This document shows positions 3,396-4,108 of a stretch of 15,637 nt of DNA, in pieces. The notes under the pieces were generated by a model. It was not told where the DNA came from. It searched no databases and saw only the letters and a program-made list of their open reading frames with translations. This stretch comes from an uncultured Eubacteriales bacterium (lineage in GTDB: Bacteria; Bacillota; Clostridia; Peptostreptococcales; Anaerovoracaceae). The stretch covers positions 1 to 15,637 of the forward strand of contig CACXCQ010000184.1 in the NCBI GenBank assembly GCA_902766185.1, given 5' to 3'. Position numbers and translations under genes: made by a program. The number at the start of each line of letters is the position of its first letter. The first letter of the stretch is position 1.

Positions 3396-3427
3396 CCTCT
3401 CTGGCGTGAACGCCGGAGAGGTTTTTT
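3396..3427 (+). terminator. intrinsic terminator after the 143-aa orphan gene
   Basis: An 11-base stem (3396-3406 with 3411-3421, one G-U pair) with a TGAA loop is followed by six T bases (3422-3427). It ends transcription 50-80 bases past the stop codon and insulates the downstream repeat elements. Confidence 0.92.
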
Positions 3428-3450: not shown

Positions 3451-3479
3451 CACCATCCCGGGGCGATCCATGAAGGAGA
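3451..3479 (+). repeat. 29-base header repeat, copy 1
   Basis: Identical over 29 bases to 3731-3759. It starts CACCATCCCGGGG and ends CCATGAAGGAGA. It directly abuts the first arm of element A. Read on the minus strand it would encode SFMDRPGMV in overlapping spurious frames. Confidence 0.95.
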
Positions 3480-3675
3480 AGTCAATGTTATGGGTATTAT
3501 AACGTGCTGTAACATTGACTTTTTCAGCTCGAGCGAGTGTATCCGAGAGAGATGTCAATGTTTCGGACGACCGTAGTAAGGAAAACATTGACTGCATGGT
3601 GCTCTCCAGCCTTTGCGCGAGAGGAAAGTCATGGTTTAGTCGGCTCTGAAACATTGAAACATTGACTTTTCCTTC
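3451..3675 (+). ncRNA. repeat element A: candidate structured RNA with three 39-base units
   Basis: A 29-base header (3451-3479) is followed by three units of the form GTCAATGTT, 21 variable bases, AACATTGAC. They lie at 3481-3519, 3554-3592 and 3628-3666, joined by linkers of 34 and 35 bases. Five of the six arms are identical; the third left arm is GTCATGGTT. The header end plus first arm (3472-3489) can pair with the last arm plus trailer (3658-3675) in 18 consecutive pairs, one of them G-U. The linkers hold small stems (CTCG/CGAG in the first, CTCTC/GAGAG in the second). The G-U pairs favour the plus strand as the transcribed strand. No clear promoter was found. That this is a repeat element is directly visible; that it acts as RNA is inference. 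Confidence 0.55.
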
Positions 3676-3730
3676 CGCACTTCTTGGGCAGGTACAGAAT
3701 CCAAAATTTCAATGAGGGAACTGTAACACA

Positions 3731-3759
3731 CACCATCCCGGGGCGATCCATGAAGGAGA
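3731..3759 (+). repeat. 29-base header repeat, copy 2
   Basis: Second copy of the header, starting 280 bases after the first and directly abutting the first arm of element B. The flanking bases differ from those of copy 1, so 29 bases is the full extent of the identity. Confidence 0.95.
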
Positions 3760-3965
3760 TGTCGAGATCGAAGCTGTTCTGGTGCATTGGGATAACGACT
3801 TTTCTTCCGGATCTGACGAAAAACAGCTTCTGTGTGCAGACCAGGTCGAGATAACGGAGCGCTGTATTGGACAGAATCTCGACTGAACTGGGCTGACCAG
3901 CCTTTGTAGACGAAAAAGTCGAGATCTCACGCATGCTAAAACACTGGAATCTCGACATTTCCTTC
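3731..3965 (+). ncRNA. repeat element B: second candidate structured RNA with three 39-base units
   Basis: The same 29-base header (3731-3759, identical to element A) is followed by three units with arms based on GTCGAGATC and AATCTCGAC. They lie at 3761-3799, 3845-3883 and 3918-3956, with linkers of 45 and 34 bases. Each unit again has exactly 21 bases between arms. One arm deviates: the first right arm is GATAACGAC. The closing pairing 3752-3768 with 3949-3965 gives 17 pairs including one G-U. The block CCAGCCTTTG in the second linker (3897-3906) is shared with element A (3606-3615), as is the trailer TTTCCTTC. Apart from these blocks the two elements have little similarity, so this is not a simple recent duplication. 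Confidence 0.55.
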
Positions 3966-3996
3966 GGATGTTTGCAGAGCCGATCTGAGATAGAGA

Positions 3997-4067: not shown

Positions 4068-4084
4068 AAAATGAGTGTCAAGTG

Positions 4085-4108
4085 CAAGCATATTCGCAAG
4101 CATATTCG
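4085..4108 (+). repeat. 12-base perfect tandem duplication in the GNAT leader
   Basis: CAAGCATATTCG occurs twice back to back (4085-4096 and 4097-4108) in the untranslated leader. It may be an operator-like site or just slippage. Confidence 0.8.

Follow-up and report, generated by a model that had tools for sequence, protein, structure and literature searches.

The window analysed here, the whole 15,637-nucleotide stretch of contig CACXCQ010000184.1 (assembly GCA_902766185.1) from an uncultured Eubacteriales bacterium of the family Anaerovoracaceae, carries twin elements, A and B. On one side of them lies a 143-amino-acid (aa) gene followed by a terminator-like hairpin (~3400-3427, by eye), on the other a gene for a GNAT acetyltransferase. 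Each element consists of a 29-base header and three units, in which two 9-base arms that pair with each other enclose 21 bases. We consider it somewhat more likely than not (about 0.55) that the twin elements are orphan A and B copies from a class of dispersed arrays whose partners are unannotated PD-(D/E)XK nuclease-like proteins, all from one family. The features of the two elements are as follows.

3451..3479, + strand: element A header, 29 bases, a section of a longer leader common to many A, B and C copies
3481..3519, no strand: element A unit 1, GTCAATGTT / 21 bases / AACATTGAC, 9/9 arm pairing
3554..3592, no strand: element A unit 2, 9/9 arm pairing
3628..3666, no strand: element A unit 3, left arm GTCATGGTT (also in most A copies), 7/9 pairing
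3472..3675, no strand: element A entire, a single imperfect palindrome, outer arms 3472-3489 / 3658-3675, 94% pairing
3731..3759, + strand: element B header, 29 bases, same sequence as the A header
3761..3799, no strand: element B unit 1, GTCGAGATC / 21 bases / GATAACGAC, 7/9 arm pairing
3845..3883, no strand: element B unit 2, 8/9 pairing, preceded by a linker of 45 bases, 11 more than in A
3918..3956, no strand: element B unit 3, 8/9 arm pairing
3752..3965, no strand: element B entire, a single imperfect palindrome, outer arms 3752-3768 / 3949-3965, 94% pairing

The first-pass annotation had described six 39-base units with 21 bases between 9-base arms, an identical header and linkers of 34-45 bases. 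All six units lie at the coordinates it gave, the first 29 header bases are the same in both elements, and the linkers read 34 and 35 bases in element A and 45 and 34 in element B. Over the six units, 48 of 54 arm positions pair, and both elements end in terminal inverted repeats of 17-18 bases with 94% pairing, the ends being judged by eye. Because the outermost arms pair and a profile matches most copies on both strands, each element is at once a set of three hairpins and a single long, imperfect palindrome.

Copies and subfamilies in the source genome

A DNA search of the source genome (335 contigs, 83% complete) gave 62 matches, with 40 of 89 candidates scored. With a profile, 26 full and 12 partial copies of an interspersed A/B/C/E repeat were listed from 40 fetched contigs, the window and some additional loci, a coverage that means the true copy number may be higher. 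The twin elements are subfamilies A and B of this repeat; the pair noticed in the first-pass annotation is real but not unique. Unit length is constant at 39 bases throughout the 26 full copies (78 of 78 units), whereas linker 1 measures 34, 35, 44 or 45 bases and linker 2 measures 33, 34 or 35. The subfamilies differ in their arms: A has GTCAATGTT, B has GTCGAGATY, C has GTCATGATT (contig C136) and E has TTCGTGATY (C20), and one copy is of mixed type (C185).

When five odd copies are set aside, leaving 10 of A and 11 of B, conservation is highest in the arms (0.989 in A and 0.960 in B) and lowest in the loops (0.884 and 0.801). Between A and B, loops did not prove better conserved than arms, contrary to an initial idea: identical consensus positions amount to 0.61 in arms, 0.49 in loops and 0.52 in linkers. 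The earlier statement that the 21 inner bases share no common sequence holds between unit positions, but not for the same position among copies of one subfamily, which is recognisably alike. In 338 kb of the source genome, neighbouring hairpin pairs with like arms and equal gap numbered 49 at gap 21 versus 0-3 per even gap tested; further high odd gaps represent the same stems scored longer or shorter.

Copies of A and B adjoin at five loci (window 3457-3973 and contigs C277, C189, C168 and C219), two in the same orientation and three facing each other, as if elements land near elements. On contigs C9, C113 and C6, B arrays begin with an additional unit 1, the junction lying within linker 1, and thus have four units, so that units seem to rearrange as modules. 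A further family, D, with arms CGTGTTGAT, has four units and linkers of ~42, 13 and 45 bases, again symmetric; in some D copies each right arm pairs with the next left arm.

Arrays with other arms in related species

One match in G016 excepted, A and B had no match (E<=0.001) in 36 congeners, nor in 24 additional genomes from the order; the G016 match, 25 bases long, sits in an apparent coding gene. Short matches to CAGCCTTTGCG in G010, G011 and G001 were dropped, being in coding DNA by eye. Among weak congener matches of the C query, the one in G017 was inspected; the one in G064 and five belonging to other families were set aside uninspected. Scanning with the core motif gave 2 matches in the genome_contigs collection, no more than our chance estimate, and 0 in viral_contigs, collections from which the source genome may be absent.

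Family D was found in one congener, G006, at the orthologous place, where the flanks are 87% identical to those of the source genome. Among 30 loci from 30 genomes, this intergenic site holds arrays at five: D arrays in the source genome and G006, GTATCACGA arrays with 39-base units and linkers of 33 and 44 bases (by eye) in G066 and G004, and a CACCGA-type array in G013. None was seen at the other 25 loci, some of which have a different next gene.

Further arrays occur in each of four congeners (~1.5 Mb), with other arms but the same plan of equal short arms in alternating orientation; one block-shuffled copy of all the DNA scanned (~1.9 Mb) contained no array with as many as four alternating arms. 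Tandem arrays in G004 (L204:12523-13240, L208:4440-4880 and L211:183-560) repeat every 74 bp, have as many as ten alternating arms and exceed the usual three units. Collectively, equal short arms alternate in orientation with a fixed unit length, and the arms agree within an array and differ between subfamilies and species.

Arm spacing follows the DNA helix

Spacings between like arms were collected automatically from 24 arm groups, giving 41 values up to 100 bp; nothing was removed, chance-looking arrays were included, and some groups are splits of one family. Of these values, 39 lie within 51-53, 63-64, 72-74 or 81-84 bp, the exceptions being 89 and 91. At 10.5 bp R was 0.695, reached by 0 of 20,000 random sets; with values >100 bp added, R(10.5) was 0.501. 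The best period was 10.0 (R 0.723), and since R was still 0.604 at 9.0, the period has an uncertainty of at least about half a base pair. A hand-kept set (15 families, 25 values) gave a best period of 10.5 with R 0.84, reached by 0 of 100,000 random sets. Like-arm spacings thus cluster in classes separated by roughly one turn of the helix. Neighbouring arms in one G068 array are 31, 21, 31, 42, 31 and 32 apart. D arrays fit helical spacing more poorly.

The first-pass annotation had expected that segment lengths spread widely around 21 in other genomes would speak against a measured distance. Some other families do have other gaps, such as 25 and 35-36 between the 7-base arms of GTGGGGT arrays (by eye), but they change in steps of ~10 and show no wide spread.

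A nuclease-like protein family beside the arrays

Searching G004 and G066 with the GTATCACGA-arm pattern revealed one place in G004 where arms lie 1.35 kb apart. Between them is a single 345-aa open reading frame (ORF) with a three-unit array on either side; the arm finder reported 6 arms to its left and 4 to its right, where the third unit is degenerate by eye. The protein had no Pfam or NCBIfam match. The protein collection contains 42 relatives of it and 121 of a second clade; those listed are unnamed or "hypothetical protein" and come from Clostridia, Lachnospiraceae, Firmicutes and once Lentihominibacter (an Anaerovoracaceae genus). Within the genus, a family profile matched 43 of 49 genomes, the maximum being 18 matches in one genome, some genes being counted twice.

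The predicted fold of the C-terminal domain resembles TnsA and other PD-(D/E)XK nucleases and includes the alpha-beta-beta-beta-alpha-beta core. The D...(D/E)xK motif is incomplete: the D is invariant and the E is present in 9 of 10 sequences (alignment A3), followed by H-x-G, with no lysine two residues on. Variants of the PD-(D/E)XK motif exist. The first predicted model had 0 Foldseek matches at E<=0.001, a PHROGs search with the protein gave nothing convincing, and a search of viral_contigs with patterns selected by the search tool found no relative. The family also shows weak similarity to the C-terminus of the defence candidate PDC-S68 (E 1e-7 to 4e-5).

Of the 17 copies of the gene that were examined, 14 lie within ~700 bp of an array with at least two units. 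Arrays were detected by the finder near L222, L257:17926-18780, L293, L296, L297, L298, L300, L301, L302, L230 and contig C8 of the source genome, and by eye near L295, L299 and L223. L303 has one unit before the contig end, L294 is cut off at a contig start and shows none, and L257:12678-13538 has no array in view. With at least 5 arms required, arrays detected by the finder flanked 8 of 14 genes versus 1.0-3.6% of random 1-kb windows; with at least 4 arms, the figures were 9 of 14 versus 11-24%. Family genes thus adjoin arrays far above chance. These genes were a selected sample, in that L293 was found via its arms, L302 is its 95% relative, and ten places were hand-picked from the profile-match list; among six genes in DNA fetched for other reasons, 5 have an array. 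An ORF left unnamed in a survey of 20 ORFs beside arrays, L222:11455-12369, proved to be a family gene; the survey (crude longest-ORF calling) found no common Pfam-named neighbour.

Arms are common to L293 and L302, and CCGCAGA is common to L297 and L303 (55% identical), whereas gene pairs with differing arms are 22-52% identical. For some arm types, a single gene-bearing copy coexists with gene-less arrays. On contig C147 of the source genome (L296), eight D-type arms extend across the putative -10 box, the leader and the first codons of a family gene, an arrangement that suggests self-controlled expression. This D-type gene (L296:451-732) has D-Y in place of the conserved E-H of its relatives, so its protein may be inactive as a nuclease. 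Contigs C8 and C211 hold family genes with other arms. In the source genome, 83% complete as assembled, no family gene was seen beside arms of type A or B; C243 is truncated.

Other repeats near the arrays

On contigs C136, C13, C54 and C109, D arrays directly adjoin a distinct repeat, which bears GTGTCCAC and GTCCACAATCTGGGGTACAGT motifs and looks like the ends of another insertion element. The flanks of A and B copies hold other dispersed repeats: TTTACACCA...TGGACTTGAC ends, GTTCGCTC...GAGCGAAC hairpins and TCGCGCTAAGGCGC hairpins. In the window, a perfect 12-base tandem duplication, GCAAGCATATTC, lies at 4084-4107, just within the start of the long GNAT ORF, whose true start codon may be a later one.

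Discussion

The arrays form a large class in one group of gut-type bacteria, and their association with a nuclease-like family points to mobile or selfish bacterial DNA of a new kind. The partner protein might bind the arms, perhaps via an N-terminal three-stranded sheet and helix, and its molecules would line up along one DNA face every 2 to 5 turns. It may copy or insert arrays into intergenic DNA; gene-less arrays would then be non-autonomous passengers resembling miniature inverted-repeat transposable elements (MITEs) or REPINs (hairpin-forming doublets of repetitive extragenic palindromes, REPs), and arms would diverge together with their nuclease. More tentatively, and at somewhat less than even odds, the arrays represent a new class of selfish DNA in which a PD-(D/E)XK nuclease, and neither a transposase nor a recombinase, assembles on helically phased arrays of its own arms, cuts DNA and copies the arrays, with or without its gene, into intergenic DNA, nuclease and arms co-diverging as many pairs per genome across the genus.

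TnsA of Tn7 and other PD-(D/E)XK nucleases are like the partner protein in the predicted fold of its C-terminal domain. Rpn proteins (recombination-promoting nucleases) have this fold too, and we know of no arrays associated with them. The partner protein differs from TnsA and Rpn in its N-terminal domain and in lacking any Pfam or NCBIfam match. Rpn proteins, filed as Transposase_31, are described as DNA-mobilising or defence proteins (PMC5350276, PMC10327210).

The nearest known arrangement (PMC3116915) is that of REPINs or bacterial interspersed mosaic elements with RAYT transposases: dispersed intergenic inverted doublets and tandem arrays in several families, each near a specific gene. 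In each REPIN doublet the inverted ends are conserved and the spacer between them is less so (PMC3116915), a trait present in A and B. Here, in contrast, the neighbour is a protein predicted to be PD-(D/E)XK nuclease-like and not a Y1 transposase, and the arms are short, are not hairpins themselves and have a spacing that follows the DNA helix. REPs carry a GTAG-type tag (PMC3733652). As with MITEs, defined as in PMC3116915, the arrays are palindromic, 100-400 bp long and dispersed, with terminal inverted repeats; unlike MITEs, they have three or four inner units of the same arms and a candidate enzyme that is not a known transposase. The first-pass annotation knew of no named element with this layout, in agreement with searches of Rfam and the open-access literature. 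The latter yielded nothing joining such arrays with a nuclease, and within the text searched the class is apparently undescribed.

An account in which REP/REPIN- or MITE-like elements are moved by an ordinary transposase elsewhere, and nuclease genes share the same intergenic hot spots, is unlikely in our view. It would fit the dispersed copies, the extended terminal inverted repeats, the five loci of adjoining A and B copies and the REPIN-like doublet form. A Y1 transposase as partner is nevertheless unsupported: PF01797, the one transposase family searched, had 0 matches in the source genome (83% complete), G013 and G006 and is present in just 14 of 49 genomes. Moreover, neighbouring arms are gene-specific, and close relatives share arms. 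Ranked below this account, and also unlikely, are fixed regulatory or chromosome-organising sites, with a nuclease-fold regulator binding its own promoter and other arrays without moving them. The eight arms over the D-type promoter region, the helical phasing, which suits cooperative binding, and the D array at the same place in the source genome and G006 argue for such sites. Against them, a family with 26 full copies in the source genome and none found in 36 congeners looks like recent spread, and arrays adjoin many unrelated genes.

It is improbable that the arrays hold or repress a harmful nuclease as one half of a defence or addiction pair. The PDC-S68 similarity, the many paralogues and the arms over one promoter are consistent with such a pair, whereas gene-less arrays are abundant and no partner gene was seen. 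Least probable of all is a transcribed structured RNA, with three stem-loops or one long hairpin and 21-base loops. Folding energies of the two elements are below those of shuffles (z -3.18 and -2.94), and arm complementarity persists across subfamilies, yet pairing alone needs no likeness among all arms of one element. Rfam gave 0 matches at the gathering score in the window, and 96 mismatched arm positions comprise 1 G.T and 21 A.C. Together with the spacing by nearly whole helical turns, which favours a protein on double-stranded DNA over RNA, these results speak against an RNA with a 21-base payload, one of two possibilities raised at first pass. The other, a protein reading half-sites ~30 bp apart, gains support from the 78 of 78 fixed units amid varying linkers and loops and from the helical-turn steps of other arrays.

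If the pairing of arrays with PD-(D/E)XK nuclease-like proteins is correct, a large orphan protein family, with matches in 43 of 49 congeneric genomes and covered by no Pfam or NCBIfam model, would be tied to a specific DNA element. It would offer many natural protein-DNA pairs whose binding code is readable by comparison, and a class of mobile DNA with a nuclease as its only visible enzyme. Many intergenic repeats of these genomes would thereby be accounted for.
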